Shown piece by piece: positions 1,505 through 62,600 of a DNA stretch of 64,000 bases (positions are counted from its first letter, which is position 1; every line of letters begins with the position of its first letter). The DNA comes from Mesostigma viride (Eukaryota > Streptophyta > Mesostigmatophyceae > Mesostigmatales > Mesostigmataceae): the NCBI GenBank assembly GCA_009746045.1, contig RPFO01000050.1:2909216-2973215 (forward strand). Reading direction: 5' to 3'. The position numbers and the translations under genes are program-made. The notes under the pieces are model-generated. The model ran no database searches. It was not told the origin of the DNA and saw only the letters and a program-made list of their open reading frames with translations.

Positions 1505-1680
1505 GGTAATGGCAAGCGACTCTTACCCGCGGCGTGGCGGTAACGCTTCCATGGCGGCCGCCGTGTTCTCCGCCTATTAAAGGTACTAGCAATGGCCTAA
1601 TAAAAAGTTAAGGAAATAGGAATAGTAGCTACCGAGCTCACCCACAGGGTGGCGGTACACATCAGCCATCAATCGCGGCC
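1505..1680 (-). repeat. Two decayed copies of the CDC23 exon 9 3' end and splice donor
   Basis: The genuine exon 9 donor is at 2005/2004. Sequence at about 1,520-1,570 repeats it (TCTTACCCGCGGCGTGGCGG and on through the GCGGCCGCCGTGTTCT tract). A second copy lies at about 1,637-1,680. Donor-equivalent positions are about 1,527 and 1,642. Both lie inside intron 9 and keep a GT-like donor. Confidence 0.8.
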
Positions 1681-2004
1681 GCTCTGACCTATTACTTGCA
1701 TGTACTACAGTGCTATTATAGTACTACAATCTACTTTACTAATGGAGGAATGTCCATGTTTCCCAGACCACTGGGAGCCCCCCAAATACGTGACCAATCC
1801 ACAAAGGGGAGAAAACAGCGGGCCAGTAGCGGGCAAGTCCCCAAACTACACCCAAACCAGGGGCAATCCACGAAAACGCAGGTTGCACGCGGGTTGGTTG
1901 CAAGCTCAGACTGCCATGTGGGGCTGGGTGGAGCCAGCGGTGTCACTCTAGTGCCATTATAGTACATGGCAGTGCTCATCAATAGGGGGATGAAGACATC
2001 TTAC

Positions 2005-11767
<9,763 letters not shown>

Positions 11768-13950: not shown

Positions 13951-14252
13951 CTTTGTGATGTAGTTAGTTGTACCTTGTGTGCACAGCTGGCGTGATCCTT
14001 GCTTGCCTGCGTCAGATTACTATTATTTTCTTCAGGGTTCTTCTTCTTTTCGGGGTTTACCTTATGTTGCATGCCATTCTCACCTCCGTAATTTATCATT
14101 CTCAATGAATAATTACAGCGGTGAGATGGGCATGCAACATAAGGAAAACCCCGAAAAGAAGAAGAACCCTGAAGAAAGTAATAGTAATCTGACACAGACA
14201 TCCAAGGATCACGCCAGCTGCACAAGATACAACTAACTATGTAATCACAAAA
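13951..14252. mobile_element. Foldback/MITE element, about 140-bp inverted arms
   Basis: The left arm runs TTTGTGATGTAGTTAGTTGT...CAGCTGGCGTGATCC and continues through GAAAAGAAGAAGAACCCTGA (in reverse) to the centre near 14,101. The right arm is its near-perfect reverse complement, ending ACTAACTATGTAATCACAAA. Related half-copies occur at 14,295-14,360, 37,630-37,700 and 41,070-41,225. It has no ORF. A non-autonomous DNA transposon is likely; the superfamily is undetermined. Confidence 0.85.
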
Positions 14253-14369
14253 CTACTATGAATATATATAGTTGTCTCCTTGATAGAACCCTAGGGTTTT
14301 TTCCTTATGTTGCATGCCCATCTCACCTCCGTAATCTATCATTCTCAATGAATATATATAGGCCAGTTA

Positions 14370-14523
14370 GGCTCGAAACACACGCCCTGATCAAGCATGC
14401 TGTTTCCGGCCCCACCGTCTAGGTCATCTAGTACGTCGCTCTACACGTAACCCAGCCATAATTTCAATGCACAAGGATACACATTTCCAGATGTCACCAT
14501 TCATCTTCATCATCCTGAACGAC
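14370..14523 (+). repeat. Dispersed repeat R1, left part (interrupted by LINE)
   Basis: GGCCAGTTAGGCTCGAAACA through CATCATCCTGAACGAC matches 17,083-17,236 closely. There the sequence continues uninterrupted into the R1 right part. Confidence 0.88.
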
Positions 14524-15660: not shown

Positions 15661-15785
15661 ATCCTGAATTAACGACTCGAACACGCGGACAAGATAACGG
15701 CAGGCTCGAGCTACCATGGTCCGGATTCTCCCGATTTCTGGCCGGGCTGCGCTGGTTGTCTCCTTGATAGCTAGAACCCAATATT
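15661..15785 (+). repeat. Dispersed repeat R1, right part
   Basis: Runs from GACTCGAACACGCGGACAAG to CTACCATGGTCCGGATTCTC and TGCGCTGGTTGTCTCCTTGA. It matches 17,232-17,326. Its last about 50 bp is the monomer amplified at 32,885-33,365. Confidence 0.85.
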
Positions 15786-17790: not shown

Positions 17791-17804
17791 GTAAAGTAAA
17801 TGTT

Positions 17805-18669: not shown

Positions 18670-21600
18670 TTATAGCTTGAGACCACCACACAGCACGTTT
18701 GCCAGGATGTTGGTAACAACAATATTCGCCAAGTTGCGGCAGTGCCATGGCGCATGCATCCTTTCAAAAACGTGCAGTCTTTCACAGCTCCAGTGCAGGC
18801 CGTCAAAGCAATAGTCCGGCGTCAGGGCATCGGTCAGGGCAGCAAAGTCCACGATGTGGATTCGCCCTGGGACATGAAACAACAAACAAAGGTAGACGAT
18901 GGCACACTTTCGTAGGTAAGCTCAACAAACCTGAGAGCATCATCTAATGAAGCTAGGAGGAATCTATTATGTGGATTGGCCCTGGAACATGAAACCATGG
19001 GCAGGGGACGGCAGGCAGAGCAGGTGACCGATACGCCCCCGCCCCCGCCCCCGCCCCTGCCCCCGCCCCCGCCCCGCCCCGCCCCCGCCCCGCCCCCGCC
19101 CCCGCCCCCCCGCCCCCGCCCCGCCCCCCGCCCCGCCCCGCCCCCGCCCCGCCCCGCCCCCGCCCCCGCCCCCCCGCCCACGCTCACGCTGGTCATCTAA
19201 GTGAGCAAGGTACACGCCAGCTCGACATTCGTGGGAAGGCAGATAGTATATTGGGCTACCATATTGCAGACACCAGAGATATCTATCACAAGGTGGATAG
19301 CGAAAATAGGGACATTGCAAACGCGCATAACAGGCTAAGAACCTGGATCACGCACGCACACCCGCACGCACGCATATACATGCATTCAGTCATGGGCGTG
19401 TGCAGGCATGAAAAACCCACCAAAAAGCTACAGTGCAAAAGCATGAGAATCACCCCCGAGCACATCCTTCATCATCGCCACCGTCTCGTTCCCATCTAAC
19501 CGTTTCATAGTCTAAGATTGCATACTAATACAGTGTCATGTGATCCGCGGTTAAAATATGATGTCCCAAACGGCAGATCATGATCAACAACACAACCCGT
19601 AGTGGGCAACGCATCCTCCATCACCGTCACCCGAGGCGGTGACGATGATGGAGGATGCCTTGCCCACTGCCGCCTAGAATGACCAACATACAAAAACACA
19701 ATAACCCGTACAGGGAAACATCCCATCGTCATCGCCGCCAACTCGCTCCTTGCAACAAACATCTCCAAAGCCTATACCCCTCCTCCGTCAGAAAAACGCA
19801 GCACAATCTCCTTTTGGCACCGCGAAATGCCGCTGTCGCCAGCACCCTCTCCTCACAGCCGCCCCATCAATACTCCTCACCGTCATCTCAACGTTGTATA
19901 GTAGGGGGTATAGTATAGTTGGGGGTATGGTATAGTAGGGGGTATAGTATAGTAGGGGGTGTAGTATAGTAGGGGGCGTAGTATAGTAGGGGGTGTAGTA
20001 TAGTAGGGGGTGTAGTATAGTAGGGGGTGTAGTATAGTAGGGTGTGTAGTATAGTAGGGGGTGTAGTATAGTAGGGAGTGTAGTATAGTAGGGGGTGTAG
20101 TATAGTAGCGGGTGTAGTATAGTAGGGTGTGTAGTATAGTAGGGGGTGTAGTATAGTAGGGGGTGTAGTATAGTAGGGGGTACAGTATAGTAGGGTGTGT
20201 AGTATAGTAGGGTGTGTAGTATAGTAGGTGGTATAGTATAGTAGGTGGCATAGTATAGTAGGGGGTGTAGTAGGGGGAGAAAACAATCGGTGCTGATACA
20301 TAAGAATACCACGACTCGTACCAGCGAATGCCTCGTCCACCATCGAGACTGCACCTCACACCCATCTGATATTTAGCATCTTATGAGATACGATTATAGT
20401 AGTATAACTATTTCAAATCATAAGAACTCCACGAAACCGGGAAACCCCGGCTTCAACACCGCCACTGCCTCACCATCAATACACCCCCGCCTGTGCAACC
20501 AAGGTCCACCAAAGGCCTTACCAGGGAACGCCTCCTTCATCATCGCCACCGCCTTCTCGTTGGCCCACTTGATGCGCGCGTACGTGTTGTGGACCAGGGG
20601 CATGTGCGCACTGTGCCCGACCACCTCCCCCACAGGCTTCTTGAGGCCGTCCCAGCTGAGCCGGCCGCCCGCGTGCGCCCCCCCCGCGCCCCGGTGCTCG
20701 ATCCCTGCTCTCGTGAGGAACCAGGGGTAGTCGATCACTTTTGTGAGAGGGGCATCCCAAGTAGTCTCCATCTTCTCCTCCACCCAGTGGTCCCTCATCC
20801 CGCACTGGCACAGGCAGTTGGGGTCGGACGACTCCCGCCCGCACTTGCGCGAACGGCCACCGGGGCAGCTGCATTCGCCCGGTTGCCCGCCGATCGATTT
20901 GTACAGTCGGGTGGGCGAGGTCACCCATATGATCTGCCCGCGGTAGTCTGCGCCCTTGAGCATGGATATGAGCTCGCTCAGGTGCTGGGTGTACCTGCAG
21001 GGTGGATAGGATCGTTTTTTTTGGGGGGGGGAGCGAGGGAATAAGCCACGTTGGTCTTTCATGACGAAACGAGGTTGAGCAGGGTTTGCATGAGGATAGG
21101 CGTGCACCCGGACGACATGGACATCCGCTCAACCCATTCCCATTCGTGCCCTGAATATTTATGAGAAAACCAGCGCAGGCCAAAACTATGCTTGTGTCCC
21201 CTGCACCACCGAGAGTAAGGCACCAATTAGCCTTACTCTCTTGGCCAAACCTGACCTCGATTATCTCTCGGCGCGTCTTTCCCCACCACATCTCCTGCTC
21301 GCCCCCTCCCTGACAAGGTTTAGGGGTAAGGGGTAAGGGCTTAGGGCAACTAAGGTAGTGAAAGATTTATTGAGAGGCAGATGATCATAATTAGGAAGAA
21401 ATCACTAAGGGTTTTTTTAGTAAAGATACCAGGGTACTTGTTACTGAGTGGCATGAGAACATTCTTCCCTCGTTATCTTATTAGTCCACATTATCTCAAA
21501 GTAGTCCACGTTATCTTATCAGTGGTCCATGTTATCTTATCAGTAGTCCATGTTATCTTATCAGTAGTCCATGTTATCTTATCAGTAGTCCATGTTATCT

Positions 21601-24600
21601 TATCAGTAGTCCACGTTATCTCATCAGCAGTCCACGTTATCTTATTAGTTCTACCGTGCATGGCCATACAATGCTGCATAAACCCAAGAACCCATGGCAT
21701 TGCAGAAAGTGGCATTTCTGACATTTCAGCAAGGCAAGAACAGTGTGGGACTCTTTTAATAGCTTCCGGTACAGATACTGGGAAACTTTAGGCCGAGCAG
21801 GCACTCACTGACTGCACGCTCACAAAACGCAGAAACACCACCACCTTGGCTCTTGACCTGACCAGGGCTAATCAACCATGCGACTCACAGCGCCATGGAA
21901 CGCCGCATCATGTCGTTGTGGGCCGACAGAAACACGAGTGCCGATGGAATGTGGCTGGGGCTCAATTTCCAGAGCCCCATCTCCTCCTTGAGGGCGGGCA
22001 GAATAATGCCCAACCCATGGTGGTGGAGTACACGCAGTCGCGGGTCTGGTCCCAAATTGATCTCGGACTCCATTTTGTGGTACGGCGGCCAGTAGTAGAG
22101 CCCGCTGTTGGTCTTCTTGCCCTCCTGTGGCCCAGTGTCAGGATGAATATAGTGGAGGGCCGATGAAAGCAGTCAGAAGTGTCAAAGTGGTTTCAACGTG
22201 AGTAGGTAGTCGTCGGAGATGGCTTCAATGTGTACCGTCCGATGAGTGTAGTCTGTTGAATACAGCTGGGTGGATGTAGTTCCGCGTGGGAGCATCGGTA
22301 TGGAAGTCGCGATCAGCACGAGCAAATATGAAGAAGAAGCTACGAAAGGACAAAGGGCGATGAGATGCCAGTTATACAAGATGCGGGGTGCCGGTAGGTA
22401 TTTGTCCCACCAGAAAAGGGAGGGGGGGGGGGGGGGGGGGGGGGGGGCAATGACACCAGCAGTTGCCGGCACGGTTGATTAGATTAGGGGGCGAGGGTTT
22501 AAGCACACACGCCCCCGCTTCACAGCGTCCATATATTTCGGGCAGCAGGGGTTTACAGAGAGTGGGGGTATGCAGCGTGAATTACAAAGTAAAAAGTAAT
22601 TAGTGATAGTAGTAAGTAATTAATAAGTAGAAAATTGATATGAAATTCGCAAAGCAAACCGTGAATAGCAGAGAATGACAAGCTTTGTTGCTGCATGCCA
22701 GCCACATAATCCCCCTCCAGCATGCCCATCAGCAGCAAGACTATATTGTACACGATGCTCTAGCGCGTTGGGGGCATGTCATGAGGGGCAAACAGGCAAC
22801 ACAGGGGCGTGCCACTCACATAATCCCCCTCCAGCATGCCCATCAGCAGCAGGAAGATGTGCTGCATGATGCTCTCCCCCACGAACCAGATGCGCGGCGC
22901 TTTCTCCTGCGGCTGCAAGCATTGCCGCAGCGACTCGGTCGTGTGCACCCGGTAGCGGCACCCGTAGGGCAGCCAGTGGATGGGCTCCCCCTCAAAGGGG
23001 GGGTACAGCGGGTCATCCACACCGGTCCACCGGCCACGGTGGTCGCCGCGCGTGCAGCGGGGCGCGGGGGGAGGGGCTTGCATCACCCTGCAGGGCGAGG
23101 GTTCTTTGAGGCGTTGGCGGTCGGGCTTGGCTTCCAGTACCTGCACCATTGCGAAAGCATACAATTTAGATCGGACGAGTCTTAATTTCTCTTGCAGAAA
23201 ACGAGAGGCGGCGACACGCGGCACGAGCACAGGCGGAGCCCCGTGGGCATGGGCGAAAAGTAAGTGAGCTTCAATAACACCGATGAATAAAGAAAGGGAA
23301 CTTAATATAAGCACCGATTAAAGAAACTGAACTTAATTTATTCAACGATGAAAGAAAGTGAACTTAGAATATGCCTAAGGATGGAAGAGTCAGTGTTGAC
23401 TCAGTACTGAGATCTGTGCAGGGCAACTCTTAATGGGGTCTGAGTCCATACGTCAGGAGGCAAAATAACATGATCTCTGGGGGCTGAGCAAGGCTGAATG
23501 GAAGAGGCGGAGCATGACGTTTGCACTGAGCATGCGCCGTGCGTAATCTGCGCTTGAATAGAGGAGCGGGCGCTTGAATAGAGGAGCAGGCGATTGAATA
23601 GAGGAGCGGGCGCTTGAATAGAGGAGCGGGCGCTTGAATAGAGGAGCGGGCGCTTGAATAGAGGAGCGGGCGCTTGAATAGAGGAGCGGGCGCTTGAATA
23701 GAGGAGCGGGTGCTTGAATAGAGGAGCGGGCGCTTGAATAAAGGAGCGGGCGCTTGAATAGAGGAGCGGGCGCTTGAATAGAGGAGCGGGCGCTTGAATA
23801 CAGGAGCGGGCGCTTGAATAGAGGAGCGGGCGCTTGAATAGAGGAGCGGGCGCTTGAATAGAGGAGCGGGCGCTTGAATAGAGGAGCGGGCGCTTGAATA
23901 GAGGAGCGGGCGCTTGAATAGAGGAGCGGGCGCTTGAATAGAGGAGCGGGCGCTTGAATAGAGGAGCGGGTGCTTGAATAGAGGAGCGGGCGCTTGAATA
24001 GAGGAGCGGGCGCTTGAATAGAGGAGCGGGCGCTTGAATAGAGGAGCGGGCGCTTGAATAGAGGAGCGGGCGCTTGAATAGAGGAGGGGCCGTGAGTGTG
24101 GATTTGTGCCTAGGCGAACACAACGGCGGCTTATATGAACACACATACATGCACACATATATCAGCGAGACAACCATGAACATATATATGGACACAAATG
24201 GATGCTTATATGAACACAGCGGAGGCGACCCATGCAGGCCAGTGGGAGTGGTGGTGTGTGTGTGTGTGTGGGGGGGGGGATATTTTGCTGCTGACTTGCA
24301 CAGGAGAGCAGCGCATGGCACGTAGACCGTGAATGAGCAAGTAATTACGATTGCATCCGTCACAACTAGATGAAATCTGTTCAGCTAGGCTGACCACCCT
24401 AGGAGGTGTATACATAAAAAGAAGAGCAGCGGATCTCGACACGCATGAATCTGACGAGTCTGAACACGAATGAGTCTGGACACGGATGAGTCTGGACACG
24501 TAGTCATGAACTTCACGGTTACAATACGCGCAAATCACGCAGCAGTAGACAGCAGCGGGTCGTCCACAGAGGTAATAGCCCACAGCCGCGATCATACAGC

Positions 24601-25330
24601 TCACCCGGCACATAAGATATACACACATACAAACAGAAGCTTTGTCTGTTAATGGGCAGGAAGAATCCACAGCATCATACCCATGACCAAGCGCATACGA
24701 GCAGAAGCCATGGGCGGGCGTGTTGTTCACAGGCGCTGTGTGGTAAAGGTAACTAACCGGTGGGTGGGCATGGGCCTGCAGACGGGTGAGTCAGCTAGGA
24801 CTGGGGCGTAGAGGGTGTGGCACCAGTGAATGGAGGTGGTGATGGGTGGAGGGTGGTGGGTGGTGGGTGGTGGGTGGTGGGTGGTGGGTGGTGGGTGGTG
24901 GGTGGTGGGTGGTGGGTGGTGGGTGGTGGGTGGTGGGTGGTGGGTGGTGGGTGGTGGGTGGTGGGTGGTGGGTGGTGGGTGGTGGGTGGTGGGTGGTGGG
25001 TGGTGGGTGGTGGGTGGTGGGTGGTGGGTGGTGGGTGGTGGGTGGTGGTGGTGGTTGGTGGTGGTTGGTGGTTGGTGGGTGGTGGGTGGTGGGTGGTGGG
25101 TGGTGGGTGGTGGGTGGTGGGTGGTGGGTGGTGGGTGGTGGGTGGTGGGTGGTGGGTGGTGGGTGGTGGGTGGTGGGTGGTGGGTGGTGGGTGGTGGGTG
25201 GTGGGTGGTGGGTGGTGGGTGGTGGGTGGTGGGTGGTGGGTGGTGGATGGTGGGTGGTGGATGGTGGGTGGTGGGTGGGTGGTGGTGGGTGGTGGTGGGT
25301 GGTGGGTGGTGGGTGGGTGGGTGGGTGGGT

Positions 25331-25368
<38 letters not shown>

Positions 25369-30500: not shown

Positions 30501-33500
30501 CCCCAGGCTCTGACGGGCCCCATGTCACCACATGTCACCACACACTGAATGCCGTATCGTCCTATGCAGTAGCATTCTGCTATGGTAGCACTATGTCACT
30601 ATGTCAGCACTGTCTTAGCATTAACGTAACGCTGCCGGTCACGGGCTCTTTTGCACACTTCGTATTCAACTAACAAACTAGGCACTATCGTAATATTCAC
30701 CGCCACGCACTGGCTGTGCAGGTGATGCAATCAAACATGGACCGACGCAAACTGAAAGAACTCCCCAGTTGCACCGAGCTGCAAGCCCCTCCCCCCTCGC
30801 CCCGCTGCACGCGCGGCGACCACCGCGGCCGGTGGACCGGTGTGGATGACCCGCTGTACCCCCCCTTTGAGGGGGAGCCCATCCACTGGCTGCCCTACGG
30901 GTGCCGCTACCGGGTGCACACGACCGAGTCGCTGCGGCAATGCTTGCAGCCGAAACCGGGGGCTGGGCCGCGCGTCCTCTTCATGGGGGAGAGCGTCATG
31001 CACAATATCTACCTGCTACTGATGACGATGCTGGAGGGGGAATATGTGAGTGGCACGTCCCCCATGGCGCCTTCTCTGTCCATCATAATACGTATCATAG
31101 TATATATATCTATCTATCATAATGTCTGTCATAATGCGCACACAAGAGTGCTAGAAATTCATGCGGATTGTCTACAGTCATTCACGTCGTAAATTGGATT
31201 GGCTGGCGCTGTATTTCCTTGTCAACGTTTGGTTGTTGTGTTTGCGGCTGCGTTACCGTAGCCAGGTACAGATTGTCAAAAATTAGTACATACTGCTATA
31301 TTTATCATCAGCACAGATAGCACAAGTTACAGTCTCTATTAACATCTTGAATTTTTATCTCCCCAGTTGGGCGATGAGCTACACATTCGACGCGAATGAA
31401 CCGTACTTGCTGGTGTTGACGATGCTGGAGGGGAATATCTGTGGTGCACCCCCCTGTGCCCTCTGAGTCCTATCTGCCTTGCCCTATGTTTTCCGTGAAT
31501 GCGCCCTATATTCGCCCTGATGTCTCCCTGTATGTGCTATGGTCACTGTAGCATGGTCAGTGTAGCATGTGCTCTGATCATCTGTAGCATGTCGGCCCAA
31601 CAGGTCATGCACTCAAGTCTCCCTGCTGCCAATCACGACTACTGGGGCATTTGAGGAATTTCTAATTACAAGGGCTGTGTCATTAGTGCATATCAGAACA
31701 CATAGCCTCGCGACGTCTTATTGCAACTGCTTCATTGAACTACTTAGTACTTCCCGCTACGTTGGTGAGGCTGTCTCTGCCCCCCCCCCCGCCCCCCTCG
31801 TTGTCAAACCGTCTGACCAACCCAATCATTGTTACCCTCATCTCCCCCTCCACCCTCTACGCCTTCCGTCCATGACCCTGGCCCTGGCAACCCTTGTGTG
31901 ATGCACCTCATCCTGGCCCCCCCCTCCCCGGCATGGCAGGACACGCCCCCTCTCTCTCTTCTCCCCATTCATCCTAATCAATGACCTATCCTTTTTAGTG
32001 GGGCTGCTGGTGTGATAAGAGAGGTCCACGCCCCTCTGTGTAGGAGGAGAGTTTCTGCTCCCACTTAACGAAACATGATGCAACTCTGTTTCCCATTCAC
32101 CCTGCAAACTGGGCACGAACTGCTCTCCGGATGGCACCGACTGCATCGGCCCATCAACCTCATTGCGTGTCGCGTGGTGCACAGGAGGGGGAGAAGAGCG
32201 ACAGCGGGCTCTACTACTGGCCGCCGTACCATACAAACGAGTCTACCATACCACCGAGTCTTATACACTGACTGCTTTCATCGGCCCTCCACTATATTCA
32301 TCCTGACACTGGGCCGCAGGAGGGCAAGAAGACCAACAGCGGGCTCTACTACTGGCCGCCGTACAACAAGGGGGAGCATGAGCTCAACCGGGGCCCGGAC
32401 CCACGCCTCCGTGTGTCCAGCAGCCACGGGTTTGGCCTCATACTGCCCGACCTCAAGAAGGAGATGGTCATGTGGAAGAACAACCCTGGCCTCGTCCCTT
32501 CGGCACTCGTGTTCCTGTCGGCCCACAACGACATGATGCGCCGCTCGATGGCGCTGTGAGTCGCATGGTTGATTAGCCCTGGTCAGGTCAAGAGCCAAGG
32601 TGGTGGTGTTTCTGTCGGCCCACAACGACATGATGCGGCGCTCGATGGCGCTGTCAGTGGCTTTCGTTTGGGTTATCTGGGGGGGTTCGTTCGGGTTGTA
32701 TGGTTGTCAGAGAGGCTTGAGCTCTGGGTGAAATGGTGGATGCTTGCATGGTTGTTTCAGGCTCTAGCGTACAGGGGCCTAGTATGACCAGCCATTATGA
32801 GGCAATACAAAGTACAGGAACCTCCAACCGCAGCCACCTGCTCATTAATTGATATGGCAAACTTATAGCCGGTGTCAAGACGCAGCAGGCTCTGGCTACC
32901 ACGGTCCGTATTCTCCCGATGTCTGGCCTGCGCTGCTTCTCTCGTTGATGCCACGGTCCGTATTCTCCCGATGTCTGGCCTGCGCTGCTTCTCTCGTTGA
33001 TGCCACGGTCCGGATTCTCCGGATGTCTGGCCTGCGCTGCTTCTCTCGTTGATGCCACGGTCCGTATTCTCCCGATGTCTGGCCTGCGCTGCTTCTCTCG
33101 TTGATGCCACGGTCCGGATTCTCCCGATGTCTGGCCTGTGCTGCTTCTCTCGTTGATGCCACGGTCCGTATTCTCCCGATGTCTGGCCTGCGCTGCTTCT
33201 CTCGTTGATGCCACGGTCCGTATTCTCCCGATGTCTGGCCTGCGCTGCTTCTCTCGTTGATGCCACGGTCCGGATTCTCCCGATGTCTGGCCTGCGCTGC
33301 TTCTCTCGTTGATGCCACGGTCCGTATTCTCCCGATGTCTGGCCTGCGCTGCTTCTCTCGTTGATGCTACCCATGTATGCATGTCGCCGGTATATACCAC
33401 ATGCGGCGCATGTATACTGGTATATGCAGCCGGTATGAATGCAGCGGCGCATGTATACTGGTATATGCAGCCGGTATGAATGCAGCGGTGCATGTATACT

Positions 33501-36500
33501 GGTATATGCAGCCGGTATGAATACAGTGGTGCATGTATACTGGTATATGCAGCCGGTATGAATACAGCGGTGCATGTATACTGGTATATGCAGCCGGTAT
33601 GAATACAGTGGTGCATGTATACTGGTATATGCAGCCGGTATGAATACAGTGGTGCATGTATACGGGTATATGCAGCCGGTATGAATACAGTGGTGCATGT
33701 ATACTGGTATATGCAGCCGGTATGAATACAGTGGTGCATGTATACTGGTATATGCAGCCGGTATGAATACAGTGGTGCATGTATACTGGTATATGCAGCC
33801 GGTATGAATACAGTGGTGCATGTATACGGGTATATGCAGCCGGTATGAATACAGTGGTGCATGTATACTGGTATATGCAGCCGGTATGAATACAGTGGTG
33901 CATGTATACGGGTATATGCAGCCGGTATATACTTAGTAGGAACTAAGTAGGAGCCGAGCATGTGCCACAAGTAGTACGGCATATTTGTTGATGCGCCGGC
34001 ATCACCTTGTCTGGGCGCGTGCCCTGCTGCTCATCACAGCTGCAAGCTTATCCTCCAACGCCATCGCTACTTTCGGGTCCCCAGTTTATTAGGCCCTAGT
34101 TCAGGCCCTACTTGCGGACCCCTATTTTATGCCCTACTGCAGGCCGTACTTCAGGCCCTACTTAAGGCCCTACTTTAGGCCCTACTTCAGGCCCTACTTC
34201 ATGTCCTTATTTAGGCCTTACTTCTAGCCCTGCTTTAGTCCCGAATTCAGTCCCTGCTCTAGGGTCAGCCTCGACTTTGAGCCTCATCAAGGGGTTGAGA
34301 CTTTTCAGGGTAGACTTCTGGGGGCTCGGGCAGGCTTTTTATGCGGGGGGGGCAGCTCTGGAGTCTCAGGGAGGCTTACCTGTTGCTGGAGTTGATGACG
34401 TGTTTATTGTAGTGATATTGCCTGTAGTCTTGTCCCTCATTCCCTATGGTAGCTCGCTCTGCTTACCTGTTGCTGGAGTTGATGACGTGTTGATTGCAGT
34501 GATATTGCCTGTAGTCTTGTCCCTCATTCCCTATTGTAGCTCGCTCTGCTTACCTGCAGCTGGAGTTGATGACGTGTTTATTGTAGTGATATTGCCTGTA
34601 GTCTTGTCCCTCATTCCCTATTGTAGCTCCCTCTGCTTACCTGTTGCTGGAGTTGATGACGTGTTTATTGTAGTGATATTGCCTGTAGTCTTGTCCCTCA
34701 TTCCCTATGGTAGCTCGCTCTGCTTACCTGTTGCTGGAGTTGATGACGTGTTTATTGTAGTGATATTGCCTGTAGTCTTGTCCCTCATTCCCTATTGTAG
34801 CTCCCTCTGCTTACCTGTTGCTGGAGTTGATGACGTGTTTATTGTAGCGATATTGCCTGTAGTCTTGTCCCTCATTCCCTATTGTAGCTCCCTCTGCTTA
34901 CCTGTTGCTGGAGTTGATGACGTGTTTATTGTAGTGATATTGCCTGTAGTCTTGTCCCTCATTCCCTATTGTAGCTCCCTCTGCTTACCTGTTGCTGGAG
35001 TTGATGACGTGTTTATTGTAGCGATATTGCCTGTAGTCTTGTCCCTCATTCCCTATTGTAGCTCCCTCTGCTTACCTGTTGCTGGAGTTGATGACGTGTT
35101 TATTGTAGTGATATTGCCTGCAGTCTTGTCCCTCATTCCCTATTGTAGCCCGCTCTGAGCAAAATAACGGTCCTATCCACCCCACCACCCTGCAGGTACA
35201 CCCAGCACCTGAGCGAGCTCATATCCATGCTCAAGGGTGCAGACTACCGCGGGCAGATCATATGGGTGACTGCCCCGACCCGCCTGTACAAATCGGCGGG
35301 TGGCCACCCGGGCGAGTGCCGCTGCCCTGGCGGCCGTAACTATGAGTGTGGGCGCAACTCCTCCGAGCCCCACTGCCTGTGCCAGTGCGGGATGAAGGAC
35401 CACTGGGTGGAAGAGAAGATGGAGACCACCTGGGATGTCCCTTGGGCCCCTGTGATCGACTATCCCTGGTTCCTTCGCAGTAGATCCGGGATTGAGCACC
35501 GCCACGTGGGGGGGGTGCATTCGGGGGGGCAGCTCAGCTGGGAAGGTCTCAAGAAGGTCCCCGACGAGCTCATTACTTACAGTGGGCACACGCCCCTGGT
35601 CCACAACACATACGCGCGCATCAAGTGGGCCAACGAGAAGGCGGTGGCGATGATGAAGGAGGCGTTCCCTGGTAAGGCCTTCGGTGGAGCTTGGTTGCAC
35701 AGGCGGGTGTGTGTTGATGTTGATTGGTGAAGATGAGGCAGTGGCGATGTTGAAGCTGGCGTTCCCTGGTAGGGCAGCGGTATTCCATTGGAGATAACAA
35801 TCAGTAGATAGGATGAAGGCAGTGGCCATGATGAAGATTCCTTTCCGCTGGTGAGCCTCACGCATGGTATGTAATATTTTCCCTGCGCTGCCTATATCTA
35901 TTATATTTTTCCTGCATTGTCTCTCTGCTTTATGTAAGTACTCATTATTCATTGATAGGTATCAGGTATGTGTGTATATATTGTTAGGTATATGTATATG
36001 TAAGTATACCCCTATCCACGGTCCACTTGTATTCATTCTCAATATACATACATTATAAACCAAGTTGGCTTTGTTTATGAATATGCATACACCTATACGT
36101 ATATATACAGATATATACATGTGTAACGTTGATGTTGGATTTTGATAGCTCTTTCGTCCCTGTGCGTGACGTGGCTTGGCTTGCTTGACGTTGCCCCCTT
36201 TTGGAGCTCTTTTCAACGGCCCCTGTCTTTCCTTGTTCCCCTTTGCTTCATGTCTTGTTCCCCTGACTTCTTGTCTTGCGCCCATAAGTTAAAGATTGCA
36301 GTTGGTGTTTGCCTCGCAAACTTGTAGGTCCCTGTGGGCAGGGCAGTCTCTGTTTACAATCCATTACCCATAAGAAAGCCTGCCTTTTTTTCTTTCTAAA
36401 ATGGGTACCTACCCTACCGCATCATTGTGAAGGAATCGTGCATGATCCAAGAACCTACCAGGCGTCGCCGTCTTGCTATTCACTATTTCTTGAACTCCAT

Positions 36501-36916
36501 AGCTCGACTAGACCATGCTCTTCTGTGTTTTGCTTACCTACCTGCGTGCGTCAATATATGCCATTTGCTTAACTACCTGAGTGCGTGTTTCTTCTCGAGC
36601 GTTACAGGGCGGTCCATTATGTCGACTTTCCTATGCTCGATTAGACCATGCTCATGTGCTTTTTAGCTTTTTACCTACTTGATTGTGTCATCCCCTGCCT
36701 GTGTTTGTGTTCTTACTTTCAGGGCGGATGCACGTTGTCGACTTCTCTGCTCTCACCGACGCCTTGACGCCGGACTACTGCTTTGACGGCCTGCACTGGA
36801 GCTGTGACAGGCTGTACGTGCTGGAAAGGGCACATAGCCCCTGGCACTGCCGCAACTTGGCAAACGCTGCCATCACCAATATTCTGGCAAACGTGCTGTG
36901 TGGCCTCAAGCTATGA
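27528..36916 (+). CDS. Secreted SGNH/PC-esterase protein, NXPE/TBL-like (paralogue B)
   Basis: Paralogue of A. Exons: 27528-27991, 28940-29084, 30722-31045, 32320-32555, 35196-35671 and 36723-36916, 1,839 nt, 612 residues. Phases are identical to A (2,0,0,2,1). The start is ATG at 27528, matching A's MAAW; an upstream in-frame GTG is not needed. Signal peptide MATWLNFALVLTYLLNIDKC, N-domain with CGDTIRARFVSDEGLVWFAS, second-exon RLIHVDGEGMLDP, then CTRGDHRGRWTG, block I FMGESVM, FLSAHNDMMRRSMAL, and terminal CFDGLHWSC with DxxH. Coding sequence is strongly conserved with A but no intron satellite is shared, so exons are under selection while introns turned over completely. Likely role: O-acyl transfer or ester hydrolysis on surface or secreted glycans, inferred from family. 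Confidence 0.87.
29265..29547. repeat. (CCA)n-(CCT)n trinucleotide block, gene B intron 2
   Basis: About 155 bp of CCA/ACC followed by about 128 bp of CCT/TCC. It reads as poly-proline in plus frames; it is intronic because it lies past the exon 2 donor at 29,084. Confidence 0.95.
29890..30195. repeat. About 20-bp minisatellite, gene B intron 2
   Basis: About fifteen copies of CACGGTCACACTATCGGTACT with TATCGG/TAGCGG alternation. Confidence 0.93.
31395..31460 (+). repeat. Decayed copy of the gene B exon 3 3' end
   Basis: TGACGATGCTGGAGGGGAATAT followed by CTGTGGTGCACCCC resembles the real end GACGATGCTGGAGGGGGAATAT|GTGAGTGGCACG at 31,045. The donor-equivalent is about 31,438. Confidence 0.75.
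32185..32240 (+). repeat. Copy of the gene B exon 4 acceptor and 5' end
   Basis: ACAG|GAGGGGGAGAAGAGCGACAG through CTCTACTACTGGCCGCCGTA repeats the exon 4 start at 32,320 (GAGGGCAAGAAGACCAACAG...); spacing 135 bp. A second potential acceptor survives. Confidence 0.85.
32600..32660 (+). repeat. Copy of the gene B exon 4 3' end
   Basis: GTGTTTCTGTCGGCCCACAA through GCTCGATGGCGCT then GTCAGT repeats the exon end at 32,555 (GCT|GTGAGT); spacing 97 bp. Confidence 0.88.
32885..33365. repeat. 52-bp minisatellite derived from the R1 terminal motif, gene B intron 4
   Basis: About nine copies of CCACGGTCCGTATTCTCCCG + ATGTCTGGCCTGCGCTGCTT + CTCTCGTTGATG. The same motif occurs singly at the ends of R1 (15,710-15,770; 17,270-17,326) and in reverse at 17,690 and 48,425-48,555. 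Confidence 0.93.
33370..33930. repeat. 41-bp minisatellite, about 13 copies, gene B intron 4
   Basis: Unit GCATGTATACTGGTATATGC + AGCCGGTATGAATACAGTGGT. Because 41 is not a multiple of three, all three minus frames show the same peptide pattern, proving it is non-coding. Confidence 0.95.
34075..34262. repeat. Short imperfect repeat AGGCCCTACTTC, gene B intron 4
   Basis: About ten degenerate copies of AGGCCCTACTTC, 12-15 bp period. Confidence 0.8.
34372..35158. repeat. 87-bp minisatellite, about 9 copies, gene B intron 4
   Basis: Unit begins CTTACCTGTTGCTGGAGTTG and ends TAGCTCGCTCTG. Period 87 (29 codons) leaves a plus frame open. It ends 38 bp before the exon 5 acceptor. Confidence 0.93.
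35672..35860 (+). repeat. Two copies of the gene B exon 5 3' end and donor
   Basis: The real end is GTGGCGATGATGAAGGAGGC...TTCCCTG|GTAAGG at 35,671. Copies end at 35,768 (GTTCCCTG|GTAGGG) and about 35,850 (TTTCCGCTG|GTGAGC), spaced 97 and 82 bp. Both keep a GT donor. Confidence 0.88.
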
Positions 36917-48500: not shown

Positions 48501-49617
48501 GGAGACTAGTATCAAGGAGACAACCAGCGCAGGCCAGACATCGGGAGAATATGCGGTACTGTGAATAGGGCCTCTGCAGCAGCCTATTACGTCAGACCCA
48601 TGCACGGAAAGTCCAAGTTTCGTGAGTTTGTACCACTGGGTTTGTACAGTCCTATCTTGGTTGTCTCCTTGTTCTATTGGTCGTCTCGTTATGCCAATGA
48701 GGCTGCCAGTGTGGGCATAGCTAGAGCAGGATGTCTGACAAGTACGCGGAAAAATCGGTAGGCAGGCGGTGAGAACACCGGCGCAAGCGGACGAGACCAA
48801 GGGGCAGTGAGCGGGGACATTAACATACACTAAGACACACCAATATTCCATAGGTACACTATGTAGCGCGACGAGACCAACGGGCAGCGAGCTGGCAGAT
48901 TAATATAGTACTACTATACCGATACAGTATTTTAGTACTACTATACCAATTAAGTGTATTAGTACTACTATACCAATACAGTACATTAGAATTACTATAC
49001 CAATTTAGTGTTTACTAGTACTATACCAATAAAGTATATTAGTGAATACATAGTGTATACACACAAAGTGATGCGTACCAGGTTTGGGTATCGCTGCCCC
49101 TTGGCCGCCACCAGAGGGGTGATGTCCATGTCAGGGTCCAGGTACTCCATGACCTGGTCGGGCTGGAGCAGTACCGGGATGCGGTCTGTTCCACAAGGGC
49201 ATGATCCAGGCAATGGGAGTTTCAGCCAGCAGGGAAACTGCACGTATGAGCTCTAAAGTATGAGGCAGCAGCAGGACAGGAATGCGGTCTGCAGCACATA
49301 GGCATGCAGAGTTTATCACTCATAGGCAGGACAAAGCAGTCGCGTTGATCACACATGGGTGTGACAAAAGCAACCGGAGTCCTCTATAAAAGAGGGTACT
49401 TGTCCAGTAAATCCGCCCAACATTGCTGGAACTAGAGCCGCGAAACAACCGATGTTTCCTATGTCTTAATAAAAAGGAACCAGCTAGGGCCACGGCGCTT
49501 CCACCACATCCAACACCTCCACCTCCCCCCCCTCCCCCGCCTCCCCCCCTCCCCCCCCCCCTCCCCCCCTCCCCCCTTCCCCCCTCCCCCCCCCCCCCCT
49601 CCCCCCCTCCCCCCCCT

Positions 49618-49649
<32 letters not shown>

Positions 49650-52600
49650 CCCGCCTCCCCCCCCTCCCCCACCTCCACAGTCTCACCGTGCAAGTCGCTC
49701 AGGGGGGTCCCCTGGGACGACTGCGTCAGCACCGTGTACGTGGGCATGCTGTAGCTGCTGCCGTCGCCCTGGGCTGCTTGAGAGGAAAAAGTCCCCATTG
49801 AAGGTTCCATACATGCAGCCAATGCAGAGACACAAAACAGTCCATCAGGCATGGTTGGTCAGGGATGCGATGCAGTCATCGAGCTCCTCAAAACATGGTG
49901 TTAACAAGAGACGCGGGGTGGGCAGCCTCGAGCCTCTGTAGCCAGTTGATTACAGAGACTAAAGAGCATGAATATATTCTAGAGCTTGAATTTACTCTAG
50001 GGCTTGTTAGACCGAGCTTTTCTTTTTTGCTCAGACTTGTGTCTGATCGCGACCGGTTGCATGTTTGTCTCTTGAACATTAAAACACAAAAGGCCTCATA
50101 AGGCCTAGCTCCTTTCCGTGCCCCCCCCCCTACCTCCCCCTCCCCCCCCCTCGCGACATGGCATGGGTTCAGGATGTCAAGATCGTGAGGGGCGATCGTC
50201 TTGCAAAGCGATAGCAGCCACCCTTGCACTCCATCCATGCCAGGGTAGCAGAGGTAACGGAGGAGGATGGAGACACTCGACACTGCACCAACACGGAAGC
50301 AAACCCATCAAGCCGCTCACGCGCGTGAAGCATGCGGCATACGATGCGACAGTGACCGCACAGTGACCGCACAGTGACCACACAGTGACCACCCATACGA
50401 TGTGACGGTGACCGCACAGCGGGTTGTTATTACTGGCCGACACGAGTATTGACACAGGACCCGTGGAACAGGAACCCTATGACGACATCGTGGCTTATCC
50501 ACGGTACAAATCATCCACGAACCTGAGTAGGGCTTAGCCTACTCATCCCGTGAAGTGCTCACCTTGCGAGAGATTAGACTTGGAAGAATGTCTTTGCGTC
50601 AAGCATGCGGTATACTGTCTGAACTGTTCAAACTGTACTTTTCTTTCTTCTGATGAGCATTTCTTTTATCTAGCAGCTAGCAGCTGCTACTAGGGTTGAA
50701 ACCACAAGCCATATCATGGATAAAGCTTATTTATCTAGCTGATGCTACTAGGGTTGAAACCACAAGACATGTCATGGATAAAGCTTATTTATCTAGCTGA
50801 TGCTACTAGGGTTCAAACCACAAGACATGTCATGGATAAAGCTTATTGACCACACACCCACCAATCATCCGCACGTGTCAAACATGCATGCTACGGTATG
50901 CTATAGTGACCAACTACCGCCATGTAATCTACAGCAAATAGCCACCGACTCAAACCCACCGATGCGTTCGCACGTGTCGAACAGCCCTGCCATGAGCATG
51001 GGCATCCGCTTCTCGGTTTCGTCAACCTGGTAGACGAAGTAGGGCAGCCGCGCGCTCCCCTTCTTCTCCCACTCGTAGAACCTGCACGATGATACAGAGG
51101 TTGCTGGCATCCGTCACGCTCCATGACCACCCTCGCCATACCCAGCAGCGCGCCCCCCCTTCTTCTCCCACTCGTAGAACCTGCAGGGGTTGCTGGCATC
51201 CGTCACGTTGGATGACCACCCTCCTCAGGCAGCCGTGCACCCCCCTCCTCACAGCCAACCGCGGAAAGGCCTGCATGCACCTTGCGACCCAGACCCTCGC
51301 CAACAAACGATTCCCCTTCCAACGGCCCACCTTCAAAGATTTACACTGAATCCACATTTGTCCAGAGAAGAGCTGACCATCCAAGGGCCCATTCAAGACT
51401 CCTTACCCGTCACACATGGCGACACATCGGTTGTGCTTGACCAGGTGGCGGAAGGCAGGCTGAAGAACCCAAGTGACAGGTGGCAGCATATCCGTGGGGT
51501 GAGAAGAGTTAGGGGCTGGAAAAGGTGCACATGTTGCCACCCCCGCGTTATCCAAGCGGCAGGACTCGGGAACCAAGGCTACAAGACTAGAGCCAATGTT
51601 TTAGTATACAAAGTAATACGGTTTCAACTTTTTAACTCGGGAAAGCCAGGAAAGGCGGCTACGCAGGACAGATGCAAATGCAGTTACAACTTACAACCGG
51701 CTCACAACTTACAACCGGAACGGAACAGGTACCCCCCCGGCACAAACACGCGCAAACCCAGGCACAGGAAATCTGGTATGCTTTCTGGTATGCTGATACG
51801 GTGGCCGACAGACAAAAACGCACCCACCGACACGCTCAGACACGAGCTACGAGGCTACTCATGCATCTACCCGGCAAACAGACCCCACCCAGGGCTCTTG
51901 CTGATGTGGCGGGACAGTCTGCAGGCGACATTCATTCACAAATTCATTCATTCATGCACGCGCCTCCATCGGGAGAGATCTTGCAAACAGACTTAGTAGG
52001 TACCTTTCATCCCCTGATTGATGCATGGCATGAAGGGGGTGATATGTGCTACGAATATGATACTCCTAGTGGTAGTACTATGGTTTTAGCCACGTCAAGG
52101 AAGAGGGCATACAAAGAAAGAAATAGTGCATTTCTAGAATATGATACTCCTAGTGGTAGTACTATGGTTTTAGCCACATCAAGGAAGAGGGCATACAAAG
52201 AAAGAAATAGTGCATTTCTAGAATATGATACTCCTAGTGGTAGTACTAAGGCTTTAGCCACGTCAAGGAAGAGGGCATACAAAGAAAGAAATAGTGCATT
52301 TCTAGATACTCGTCTCAAGATGGGAAGCATCCCAAGAAGCCACCTCAAGAAAGGAAGTCCAGGCTCCTTCTGGCTACCCGTTTATATACAGCTTAGTTGT
52401 CACAACTATAAACCTATACAACCAGGGAGTCCCGCCCCTAGGCAACATAAGCTAACCCGAAAAAGCTAACAGTATTAACTGCCTCTGCGAAGCCTAGCCT
52501 CTCTGGCTATAGGCATTACTGATCAGCTAAGGATTACATCTGTCCGACCGATTGATTCGTATCACCACCGGGCTTTGATCTGCATTTTCCGTTCAGGGAG

Positions 52601-55600: not shown

Positions 55601-55785
55601 GTTGGCAGCCGGCAGGCGCCATTAACCCAAACGCGACAGAGTCGCTTGGATATGAGGGTGAGGCGGTCCGACTAGCTCAGCCTTCGGCTAACGTACAAGG
55701 TCATGTCTTGATAAGCGGCCACATTAACTTTGGCAACATTTGCCACATCTTCTGCGCGCAGATGGCAGCAGGTTCTTCCGCACAT
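42530..55785 (-). CDS. HMCES: HMCES/SRAP abasic-site processing protein
   Basis: SRAP-domain protein that crosslinks through its Cys2 to abasic sites in single-stranded DNA at replication forks. Exons (minus): 55697-55785, 55341-55497, 54373-54405, 51407-51459, 50960-51081, 49687-49773, 49079-49185, 45055-45120, 43710-44313 and 42530-42765: 1,554 nt, 517 residues, all phases consistent. It starts MCGRTCCHL, with the catalytic Cys2 exposed after Met removal. It then reads YEPSYNVSPGRFTPVM, MKWGLIPRW, FNARSEGV (active-site Asn), HNRCVAMCDGFYEWEKKG (active-site Glu), MPMLMAGLFD, YTVLTQ, SDLHDRIPVLL (active-site His) and VTAEMNVRSFDGPACC. The last two exons form a hydrophilic, disordered tail with a KRK basic patch, ending QASLLSFFKRAPA, a canonical PIP-box. 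Introns total over 11 kb. Divergent from EXO1. Very confident. Confidence 0.95.
43290..43612. repeat. 46-bp minisatellite, 7 copies, HMCES intron 9
   Basis: Unit CAGCATCAAGACTAATACAC + AGATAGTGATCAACTTTAAA + GCGACA with few substitutions. Confidence 0.95.
44332..44723. repeat. AGGGC pentanucleotide array, HMCES intron 8
   Basis: About 75 copies of AGGGC, the last few interspersed with AGAC. In the transcript it is (GCCCT)n, a pyrimidine-rich tract ending about 20 nt before the exon 9 acceptor (44,314). Spurious ORFs result on both strands. Confidence 0.97.
45141..48130. repeat. 3-kb heptamer array, ATGGTTG/ATGTTTG, HMCES intron 7
   Basis: About 425 units of two main heptamers, TGATGGT and TGATGTT, arranged in alternating homogeneous blocks. 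Minor variants are TGATCGT, TGGATGG and TGAGTGT. Seven-bp period leaves all minus frames open for over 1,000 codons (STINHQP/SNIKHQT); not coding, since it lies between exons 7 and 8 of HMCES. Confidence 0.98.
48425..48560 (-). repeat. Two reverse copies of the R1 terminal motif
   Basis: CAAGCGCAGGCCAGACATCG GGAGAATCCGCGG and AGGAGACAACCAGCGCAGGC CAGACATCGGGAGAATATGCGG lie in HMCES intron 7, outside the heptamer array. Confidence 0.85.
48895..49040. repeat. About 30-bp AT-rich tandem repeat, HMCES intron 7
   Basis: About five imperfect copies of TATTAGTACTACTATACCAAT followed by ACAGTA/TAAGTG. Confidence 0.85.
49186..49300 (-). repeat. Copy of the HMCES exon 7 acceptor and 5' end
   Basis: The true exon starts at 49,185 (CAG|ACCGCATCCCGGTACTGCTC). 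A copy at about 49,288 reads CTGCAG|ACCGCATTCCTGTCCTGCTG; spacing 103 bp, intact acceptor AG. Confidence 0.87.
49520..49680. repeat. C-rich homopolymer-like tract, HMCES intron 6
   Basis: About 160 bp of C runs separated by T (CCCCCCTCCCCC). The transcript has the G-rich strand just downstream of the exon 6 donor. Confidence 0.95.
50330..50420. repeat. 10-bp repeat GTGACCGCACA, HMCES intron 5
   Basis: About seven copies of CAGTGACCRCA. Confidence 0.85.
50680..50852. repeat. About 57-bp tandem triplication, HMCES intron 5
   Basis: Three copies of GCTACTAGGGTTGAAACCAC + AAGACATGTCATGGATAAAG + CTTATTTATCTAGCTGAT. Confidence 0.93.
51145..51187 (-). repeat. Copy of the HMCES exon 5 acceptor and 5' end
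   Basis: TGCAG|GTTCTACGAGTGGGAGAAGAAGGGG occurs at 51,180 and at the true exon start 51,081, 99 bp apart. The copy leads to a stop after about 22 codons. Confidence 0.9.
52053..52305. repeat. 84-bp tandem triplication with open plus frame, HMCES intron 3
   Basis: Three near-identical 84-bp units encode (in plus) EYDTPSGSTMVLATSRKRAY KERNSAFL. No start context, domain or neighbouring exon supports a gene. Confidence 0.93.
52725..53510. repeat. 46/47-bp minisatellite, about 17 copies, HMCES intron 3
   Basis: Unit GTGGCTATACTAGCGGTCTT + GAATCATGGTGCCCCGCTAC + TGCAGT(A). Length alternates between 46 and 49 by a GTA insertion. Confidence 0.95.
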
Positions 55786-59600: not shown

Positions 59601-62600
59601 CTCTGCCCCTTTGCTAAAGTGATTCGTCGGTGGTAAGGTTTTTACTCGGTGGTAAGGTTTTTACTCGGTGGTAAGTGTTTTGCCCTTGGGTAGACCTGTT
59701 GACTTGCTGTATATGCTTTGCCCGGTATCCAGGAGGGGGGAGTTGTTTGCTCTGTTTGTCTCTGTTTCCGGTAGTCAGTCGTTTTATCTCTATCTTTTTC
59801 GTTGGCCTGGTGGTAACCCGTTGGCCTGGGTGGCAAGACAGGGAGTCTTTTGTCCGGTGGCAGTGCTGTCTCTTGCTCTGTGACAACCAACTCGCCCCGT
59901 GGTCAGTCTCTTGCGTGGTGTTTAACTATTGGCCTGGGTGGCACTAAAGGGAGGAACTCGTTCGGGATGCGGCTTGCTCTGTCTGCCCGTTGACACGTTT
60001 CTGTGCTGTGGTAGGTACATGGTTTGCTCGGTGGTTTGTAGTTTGCCCAACGGGAAGATACATGACTTCACGGTACATGTCTTCTTTGTGGCAAATGTGC
60101 CCTTTCCTTCCCCCCCACAACAAAAATAGACCGGTTCTGTTTAAGATGATTTTTATCACGTGTGCCCCCTCTTCCCGATTCCCCCCCTCCCCCCCCCAAA
60201 CAAATTATGAATAAATGAAGCAGGTTCTATTTAAGATGGACCGTTACGGTTCGGCCGAGGAGCTCCGACTGGACAGTGTGCTGGGCCGCCCGCTCCCGCC
60301 CGCAGCAGCCGTCACGGCCGCGACACTTGGCACCGACGAGGACGACAGTGGCGCGAATGCCAGCCAAAGCGAGCCATCTGCAGGGCCGGATGGCAAGAGG
60401 AAGGGCGGCAAGGGCCTCTCTTTCGTGAGGATTGGGACACTCGACAAGTTCCAAGGTGGGATGACAGGTTCTGGCGGTTAGTATTAGTTTTTGATATTTT
60501 AACATTATTTTATAGTTAGTATTTTAACATCATTTCAATATTTTTGTCAACAACAGTATTTTACTATGGCTGGGTTTGGATGCTGGTAGATAATATTAGT
60601 TTGGGTTGGATGCCGGAAGGTACGGAGGCAGGGCAGTGGCAGTTGCCGGTAGATGATGGTAGCTGTAAACTGCGCGGTTGGCCATGCCTTGTGGGTTACT
60701 TGAGTCAGTGGGGGCAGGGCGTTTCAAGGGGGGAGTGTGTAAGATGGGGGCAGGTTTCTCTTAGACGGGGCAAGTTGACTCTTAACAGCTGTTCGAGAAA
60801 GCAGGGGAAAGGACAGTTAAGCCGGATGTGCTTGTGTGCTGCGACCATCTTCCCCTCATTGCCGCTTGCTTCCTGAATGCTTCTGGATCGGTATGGGCTG
60901 GCTGCCACCGGTTGAAAGGCGCTGAACGAGCGCCGAATGATACGTTTGGGCAGCTACTATCACTCCACAGGGGGGTGGTCATCTGCCGGTTCTTTCTACG
61001 CACGCCCTAACCGTGCCCAGTGCATTACTTGCCTGCCCTCACGTTGCCCGTCGTATTTTTATTCCCCCCCTTCCCCCCCTCCTTACCCCCCTCCTTACCC
61101 CCCTCCTTACCCCCCTCCTTACCCCCCTCCTTACCCCCCTCCTTACCCCCCTCCTTGCCCCCCTCCTTACCCCCCTCCTTACCCCCCTCCTTACCCCCCT
61201 CCATTACCCCCTCCTTCTCCCCCTCCTTACCCCCCTCCTTACCCCCTCCTTACCCCCTCCTTACCCCCTCCATTACCCCCTCCTTCTCCCCCTCCTTACC
61301 GCCCTCCCTACCCCCCTCCCTATCCCCCCTTCTCCATCTCTCACAGCCATGTGCGTGCTGGCCGGCTGCGACTTCTTGCCCCAGCTCAAGGGCGTGGGCA
61401 TCATCACCGCCCACAAGTCGATGGCCAAATACAGCAACGTGGAATATGTGCGTGCGCGTGCTGGGTCGTGTAGAGTGGGCGCATGGGTCGCGGGATATCG
61501 TTATGTAGACTTTGTGCGTGCGCTGGGGTGTTCTGTGTAGAAGGCCACGGATGGATGTGCGTGTGTTGGGTGTTATCACAGTGTGGGGTGGGTGCACGTG
61601 CTAGGGGTTAGCGCTTCCTATATGCATTAGACGGTCAATGGAGTCGCGGCTGTATACGTAGACCCTAATACAATATAGAAGTATGTAAGAGCATGGGTGG
61701 GTGTTTATGGTTTGGGTTATTAGAGTAAATGACTCTTGCTGGCTTGTCAAGGTGTGCATGAATGCCTGTTTGGATTCTTCTCTCAAACATGCGACTCTCT
61801 TGCTGTCGTAACAGCCCTGTAGGAAATAGGACGACCAGAGATATGAGAAAGCACACTGGATACTGGTGTGAGAGATAAGGATAAGTTTTGCAACTGGAGA
61901 GGCAAAAAGCTAAACACTAGCAGGCACGCACGAAATGAGTCCTTGCTTCGGAAACGCGACAATCGACACCAGCATAGGCCAGATAATCGTGAATCCTATT
62001 CCTGCTGCCTTATGTCTGCCCTGATGCAGATAATCGTGAATCCTATTCCTGCTGCCTTATGTCTGCCCTGATGCATATAATCGTGAATCCTATTCCTGCT
62101 GCCTTATGTCTGCCCTGATGCATGCCTCATGCCCTTAATATATGCAACGACAGGGCGTCCAGTACCTGCTTCGCAGCCTCAAGGTCAAGCCCCCGGCCTC
62201 CTACAAGATGGACTTCACGCGAGCTCTCGCCGTCTTCTCCCATGCCCGCGTGTAGGTTTGACGCTCTTTGATTGCGGCGCATACAGACATGTGGGCAGGT
62301 TTACTATCGGCTGTTTGACTATGCCATGATGGGGCTTGGCTATTGCAAGCATGTGGCTAGGCTATCTAGGCGCGGAAGTAAAGAGGCGGATTCTGACAAA
62401 CCCTTATTGTTACTTACGGATTCTGACAAACCCTGATTCTTACAAACCCTGATTGCTTCTCAAGGTAGCTGACCATTTCAAAGGCAATCAAAACCCCTGA
62501 CAAATGTCGATGATAATTGACTCACCATGTTTGTGCTGTGTCTATGCTCGCTGGGTGGCACCCTGGCAGGTACGACGCGCAGACCCGGGGCCTGCGCTTT

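Follow-up and report, generated by a model that had tools for sequence, protein, structure and literature searches.

Junction copies in the introns of a Mesostigma viride gene region: probable relics of short tandem duplications

Introduction

Why should an intron carry truncated copies of the very splice junction that bounds it? The question is raised by a 64,000-nucleotide (nt) stretch of nuclear DNA from Mesostigma viride (Streptophyta; contig RPFO01000050.1 of assembly GCA_009746045.1, positions 2,909,216 to 2,973,215 of the forward strand), which we refer to as the window and which contains five genes: CDC23, HMCES, EXO1 and two paralogues that we call A and B. A preliminary description of this DNA reported, inside introns of all five genes, extra copies of splice sites together with 20–60 nt of exon, at 14 junctions or more. 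It suggested that recurrent short tandem duplications across splice junctions had left pseudo-junctions that lengthen introns and might serve exon extension or alternative splicing, noted a spacing near 100 base pairs (bp) and knew of no such general genome feature. Here, we ask whether these copies are real, what kind of event made them and whether splice junctions are special in acquiring them.

Junction copies are real and frequent in the window

We placed 72 splice junctions across the five genes, with exon ends of B and EXO1 taken from our own models only and with 13 of the 72 junctions put at the GT or AG nearest the annotated exon end. Exon numbers are our own (CDC23 E6, E7 and E8 are exons 7, 8 and 9 of the preliminary description). 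EXO1 exons after E8 and CDC23 exons to the left of the window fall outside this set, and a frame slip in the joined model of EXO1 means that its donors are accurate to a few nt only. For each junction, 60 nt of exon plus 25 nt of intron were aligned, with gaps allowed, to the adjacent 600 nt of intron in a one-sided, fixed test, in which arrays of three or more units were masked and z scores were drawn from 100 Markov shuffles. A strict copy was defined as a direct match with z > 6 that covers 3 nt or more on either side of the junction. Three of the 72 junctions went untested (A E2 donor, B E5 acceptor and HMCES x8 acceptor), the region there being short or mostly masked.

A match with z > 6 was found at 15 of the 69 tested junctions, and 13 of the 15 span the junction (19%). 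The strict cases comprise, in the paralogous pair, the A E3 donor, the A E6 acceptor, the B E3, E4 and E5 donors and the B E4 acceptor and, in the other genes, the CDC23 E6 acceptor and donor, E7 acceptor and E8 donor and the HMCES E5 acceptor and donor and E7 acceptor (Table 1). Three exons, CDC23 E6, HMCES E5 and B E4, have copies on both sides. The A E5 donor copy scores well (z 8.4) but extends only 2 nt into the intron, short of the required span, and the B E6 acceptor is a further weak case (115–116 bp, z 5.6). The score of the CDC23 E6 acceptor was unstable across three runs (5.8, 5.3 and 7.0), and that of the EXO1 E6 acceptor was 5.3, 5.2 and 5.4. An ungapped scan of the whole window, with arrays of units longer than 12 bp included, returned 285 repeats at a score of at least 16, and the same scan of three shuffled windows returned only 5, 5 and 9. 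Where the invariant dinucleotide of a copy was read, GT or AG was retained in 15 of 19. Junction copies are thus confirmed, and in this window about one junction in five has a decayed copy in the adjacent intron.

The preliminary description had in fact listed 13 junctions rather than 14, of which 11 pass our spanning test at z > 6; the two that do not are the A E5 donor, with its 2 nt of intron, and the EXO1 E6 acceptor, with z below 6. Its statement that all five genes are affected holds strictly for four, because EXO1 contributes one weak 16-nt match without its AG. The distances that it gave were reproduced throughout (105/210, 110–111, 115, 135, 98–99, 103, 90, 363/478, 114, 84, 393–394, 97 and 97/178–179 bp).

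Table 1. Junction copies and related features in the window (distances are between copy and source)
Feature	Positions	Strand	Distance	Details
CDC23 E8 exon	2005..2096	-		two intron copies derive from its donor end
CDC23 E8 donor/exon-end copy	1521..1569	-	478 bp	alignment of 42 exon and 6 intron nt; GT present; z 30.8
CDC23 E8 donor, second copy	1637..1664	-	363 bp	GT present
CDC23 E7 acceptor array	3128..3394	-		105-bp unit, 2.5 copies, 99%; last unit overlaps E7 by ~24 nt
CDC23 E6 donor/exon-end copy	4840..4868	-	109 bp	GT lost; new relative to the preliminary description
CDC23 E6 acceptor/exon-start copy	5127..5161	-	110–111 bp	AG lost
A E6 acceptor copy	18969..18995	-	115 bp	AG present; B has its own copy at the same distance
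A E5 end copy	20438..20470	-	84 bp	GT present; intervening stretch open, in frame
A E3 donor copy	22693..22761	-	114 bp	last 32 exon nt identical; GT present
B E3 donor copy	31404..31454	+	393–394 bp	GT not in register
B E4 acceptor copy	32175..32229	+	135 bp upstream	AG present
B E4 donor copy	32606..32661	+	97 bp downstream	GT present
B E5 donor copy	35736..35775	+	97 bp downstream	GT present
B E5 donor, further copy	near 35815–35850	+	178–179 bp	
B E6 acceptor copy	36585..36637	+	115–116 bp upstream	AG present; new relative to the preliminary description
HMCES E7 acceptor copy	49264..49306	-	103 bp	AG present
HMCES E5 donor copy	50852..50892	-	98–99 bp	GT present; new relative to the preliminary description
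HMCES E5 acceptor copy	51143..51223	-	98–99 bp	intron part recognisable; AG present
EXO1 E6 exon-start copy, weak	60133..60148	+	90 bp upstream	16-nt match; AG lost

Copies have the geometry of contiguous tandem duplications

Orientation and extent both inform on the type of event. None of 57 junctions had an inverted copy at z > 6 (one reached 5.9), and of 223 templates from exon interiors (at least 20 nt from both junctions, in exons of at least 100 nt with both ends placed), only one matched the adjacent intron, that one being the B E4 junction copy itself. Direct orientation, with exon material reaching the junction, is the geometry of a contiguous tandem duplication, and on this point the preliminary description, which proposed recurrent short direct duplications across junctions with pseudo-junctions lengthening introns, is borne out. 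Dispersed templated insertion was considered and set aside, as inverted and independent exon-interior copies were not found.

CDC23 E7 presents the tandem unit in fresh form, with exon and intron both repeated and two decoy acceptors in the upstream intron, at 105 and 210 bp; a diverged extra copy of the unit lies at 3654–3715. The HMCES E5 acceptor copy likewise keeps the repeated intron part, with an insertion or deletion.

At 11 of the 13 strict junctions the copy lies 97–135 bp away, the exceptions being B E3 (394 bp) and CDC23 E8 (363 and 478 bp). The clustering near 100 bp that had been described is therefore present, but it is largely what detection favours: in simulation, unit length multiplied by detection probability, taken as the detection weight, rose from 2 for 30-bp units to 31 for 100-bp and 39 for 120-bp units. 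Because the search best detects such lengths, we do not read the clustering as a sign of mechanism.

A probable origin in ordinary duplication, and the fate of the copies

Taken together, we consider it probable that the copies are relics of ordinary short tandem duplications, with units mostly of about 84–135 bp, that crossed splice junctions by chance in a genome where local duplication is very common. A short direct duplication would now and then happen to cross an exon edge. As long as the outermost site (the upstream donor or the downstream acceptor) is still used, the protein would be unchanged, and for this reason the event would be nearly neutral and hence tolerated. The inner copy would then turn into intron and decay, and because selection holds the functional exon, the exon part of the copy should remain recognisable for longer than the intron part.

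What can be seen of splice use is consistent with this course. The annotated A, CDC23 and HMCES proteins are built from the outer junctions, with no copy included, no new intron appears at the copies in these three proteins, and the copied segments contain intron boundaries that already existed. Retention of GT or AG in 15 of 19 copies is, by simple arithmetic, about what neutral decay would leave at 10–15% divergence; it neither shows purging nor demands selection.

A reading in which selection maintains the copies as functional splice sites, either alternative or decoy, could draw on this retention and on A E5, where use of the copy would give an open, in-frame extension of 28 residues. We nevertheless regard it as highly improbable. 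Between A and B, the E5 copies match at 31 of 38 positions and the intron preceding them at 43 of 46 aligned positions plus a 13-nt gap; conservation of the copies thus does not exceed that of the adjoining intron sequence. Use of the A E3 or B E5 copies would run through stops, and the three annotated proteins do without the copies altogether. As an observation in its own right, the A E5 extension would span 84 nt without a stop (20438–20521), and the matching stretch of gene B contains one.

Are junctions preferred over other positions?

Positions elsewhere in the introns carry many such duplications as well, in keeping with chance crossing, and whether junctions stand out depends on how arrays are treated. 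Our final control, on which we rely, covered all 72 junctions with exons removed from the intron set and equal numbers of shuffles, in masked and unmasked runs (three junctions again being untested when masked). With arrays masked, a copy was found at 113 of 1,823 intron positions (6.2%), or 57 of 1,617 (3.5%) once positions near the listed copies were removed, and at 16 of 1,140 intergenic positions (1.4%), neighbouring control positions overlapping and thus not being independent. With arrays left in, the figures were 565 of 1,724 for intron (33%), 34 of 612 for intergenic DNA and 12 of 72 for junctions (17%). Arrays make up 32% of gene introns (the window has 75 rows of Tandem Repeats Finder output), and the unmasked intron figure is inflated by array expansion.

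Earlier controls gave a similarly divided picture. In the ungapped scan with a 5-nt margin, copies were found at 9 of 57 junctions, compared with 26.0% of intron positions when arrays were counted and 7.8% when they were not; at margins of 8 and 10 nt, the junction counts were 5 and 4 of 57 (9% and 7%), compared with 6.5% and 5.7% of array-free positions, which is little excess. A first control with random pseudo-junctions found copies at 5 of the 289 positions tested in introns and 8 of the 295 tested in intergenic DNA, and a denser one at 72 of 1,448 (some exon interiors included) and 19 of 1,460 (the 3' part of HMCES included), respectively. The preliminary description had proposed a count against shifted positions; run within the window by rotating the junctions in the ungapped scan, at least nine copies arose in 77.6% of shifts with arrays, which speaks against anything special to junctions, and in 0.3% without them, which speaks for it.

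Several observations weigh against chance crossing and have to be set out together. The junction rate of 19% is three to five times the array-free intron rate (6.2% or 3.5%), and exon constraint alone made copies only 1.25–1.55 times easier to detect in simulation. The copies also break off soon after the junction: the aligned intron part is at most 18 nt in 12 of the 13 spanning cases, and among those whose exon part reaches 15 nt or more, 11 of 12 stop within 18 nt of intron, against 19–64% of simulated tandem duplications (a range that depends on the indel rate and age assumed). Repeated intron 12–62 nt from the junction was detectable in only 4 of 16 copies; the remaining copies may be too old, or the intron part may never have been present. 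The B E4 donor copy differs from its source at just 2 of 47 exon positions, yet its repeated intron is not recognisable. Because A and B are identical at the intron start there, conversion from A may have overwritten the repeated intron of this B copy. In general, fast intron turnover, conversion between exon and copy or copying limited to the exon could each explain the break-off.

How firm the excess is depends on the rate expected. At 6–8%, the probability of at least 13 copies in 69 junctions is 0.0003–0.003, and the excess is clear; at 10–13%, a rough guess that counts arrays as single events, it is 0.018–0.107, and the excess is weak. We therefore describe a soft excess at junctions, roughly two- to fourfold over array-free intron, that is gone if arrays count. 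The suggestion that the pattern is special to junctions thus gains from the array-free comparison (13/69 against 113/1,823) and loses from the one with minisatellites (12/72 against 565/1,724). Because exon constraint eases detection, and because masking hides minisatellites that are themselves duplications, we do not take this as a demonstrated junction preference.

A process truly biased to junctions, in which breaks or template switching linked to transcription or splicing copy exon ends and a few intron bases into the nearby intron with no full tandem unit, would account for the array-free excess, for the break-off in 12 of 13 cases and for the B E4 donor copy, with its two exon differences and no recognisable repeated intron. 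It fits poorly with the unmasked comparison, in which intron exceeds junctions, with the range of P values reached when arrays are single events and with the lack of both independent exon-interior copies (223 templates) and inverted ones (0/57), and the CDC23 E7 and HMCES E5 acceptor copies are plain tandem units. On balance, we think it unlikely.

Gene conversion between an exon end and its inner copy, homogenising the exon part only and so keeping it similar, is very unlikely in our view, even though some details point that way. In the A E3 copy, the 32 identical exon nt lie beside 24 nt that match at only 16. The E6 copies of A and B are both 115 bp from their source, yet each resembles its own exon (22/33 and 23/32) about as closely as it does the other copy (21/34). 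Moreover, the identical exon tracts of A and B suggest conversion between the genes. Against this, the E5 copies behave as simple orthologues (copy to copy 31/38, A exon to A copy 26/38, B exon to B copy 31/38), and the differences amount to a few bases.

The strongest version of a junction-centred account would combine these elements: junctions would be preferred duplication sites, where a process tied to exon ends places a copy of 20–60 nt of exon, together with the splice consensus, some 100 nt inside the intron; about one junction in five would be affected, and exchange with the exon would keep the copies similar. We judge this distinctly unlikely; if it were true, splice sites would be available ready-made, genome-wide, for extending exons and altering introns. 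Chance crossing by ordinary tandem duplications remains our preferred explanation.

The genes of the window

The gene models behind the junction set were checked against proteins where possible. Joining six exons of gene A from window DNA gives an intact frame of 609 residues, whose product is 100% identical to the eukprot record Mesvir1/21695, and the joined exons of gene B give an intact frame of 612 residues. Our partial CDC23 model has 96% identity to Mesvir1/21694 over 97% of the query, and the incomplete HMCES model matches Mesvir1/21697 at 84%; mapping these Mesvir1 proteins back to the window recovered the same exon ends and added further exons. The EXO1 product has an XPG N-terminal domain.

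Genes A (18670–26777, minus strand) and B (27528–36916, plus strand) form a head-to-head inverted pair of paralogues whose six exons correspond. Against a background identity of 76–86%, several tracts of about 65–127 nt in exons and at intron edges are identical, a pattern that suggests gene conversion between the two arms. Product A has three protein matches at an E value of 1e-3, all from Mesostigma and one of them itself (7,772 scored candidates from 5.8 billion), and no Pfam family above the cut-off. Gene B, intact as it is, is absent from these matches, and for that reason the annotation may lack it or contain a faulty model of it.

HMCES (42533–55785) spans more than 13 kb, and its product has a long low-complexity tail at the end followed by QASLLSFFKRA, which we take to resemble a PCNA-binding motif. 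One of its introns holds 428 copies of the heptamer GGTTGAT, in an array of 3 kb (45142–48137). In CDC23, a 31-bp minisatellite (9160–9391) reaches to about 2 nt from the acceptor of a small exon and ends at the exon edge. Elsewhere, a 300-bp near-palindrome (13952–14251; 85% identical to its own reverse complement) lies beside a reading frame (14371–15232) that presumably encodes the reverse transcriptase of a long interspersed nuclear element; the first part of this frame had no match in Pfam.

Discussion

The view that such copies were not a known feature was mistaken as to kind. In the passages covered of a study of a potato RdRp gene, a tandem duplication across an intron–exon boundary created a new intron that is used, with support from RNA sequencing, and the same gene contains an 83-bp tandem duplication inside an intron (PMC4974935). 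The potato case and ours share the same kind of event, a tandem duplication that crosses an intron–exon boundary. They differ in outcome, insofar as the potato account goes: there the copy is used and an intron was gained, whereas the Mesostigma copies appear to have been left as intron, and at about a fifth of the junctions in the window.

A model of intron gain by tandem duplication of AGGT was reportedly proposed by Gao and Lynch in 2009 and by Hellsten in 2011. It resembles our case in that a short tandem duplication within a gene creates or multiplies splice sites; as outlined in the part of the literature covered, it differs in that the new intron arises from duplicated exon, whereas in Mesostigma existing junctions are copied into an existing intron. 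A review, in its relevant passages, lists tandem genomic duplication among the mechanisms of intron gain and describes the AGGT-in-exon model (PMC3443670). This form of intron gain was tried as an explanation and rejected: the A, CDC23 and HMCES proteins, which we checked, have no new intron ends from duplicated exon.

Introners, as described in part of one source (PMC9860276), are another case of repeated sequence associated with introns, but they copy themselves into many genes. Within the window, by contrast, the junction repeats seen in self-comparison at an E value of 1e-3 are confined to their own gene or, for A and B, to the pair of paralogues, and on this ground an introner or other mobile element was rejected as the source.

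The kind of event is thus already known, and what stands out is its high local frequency. The Mesostigma genome has been reported to have long introns (mean 1,142 bp) with 30.1% repetitive elements, and its gene models, which may be the source of the Mesvir1 proteins, combine ab initio, homology and RNA evidence; the passages of that paper covered here do not mention junction copies (PMC6947507). Likewise, among the matches listed from open-licence literature on duplicated splice sites, tandem duplication and intron gain, as far as these sources were covered, there was no survey of such a frequency.

The frequency seen in this window is high enough to merit a genome-wide count. If it holds across the genome, Mesostigma would provide a natural collection of junction duplications, large and varied in age. 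From such a set, one could measure the rate of these events, the time until the spliceosome ignores a spare site and the rate at which new exon ends or introns arise. These quantities would bear on the origin of introns and of alternative splice sites, and would do so in a lineage that stands close to the base of the line leading to land plants.
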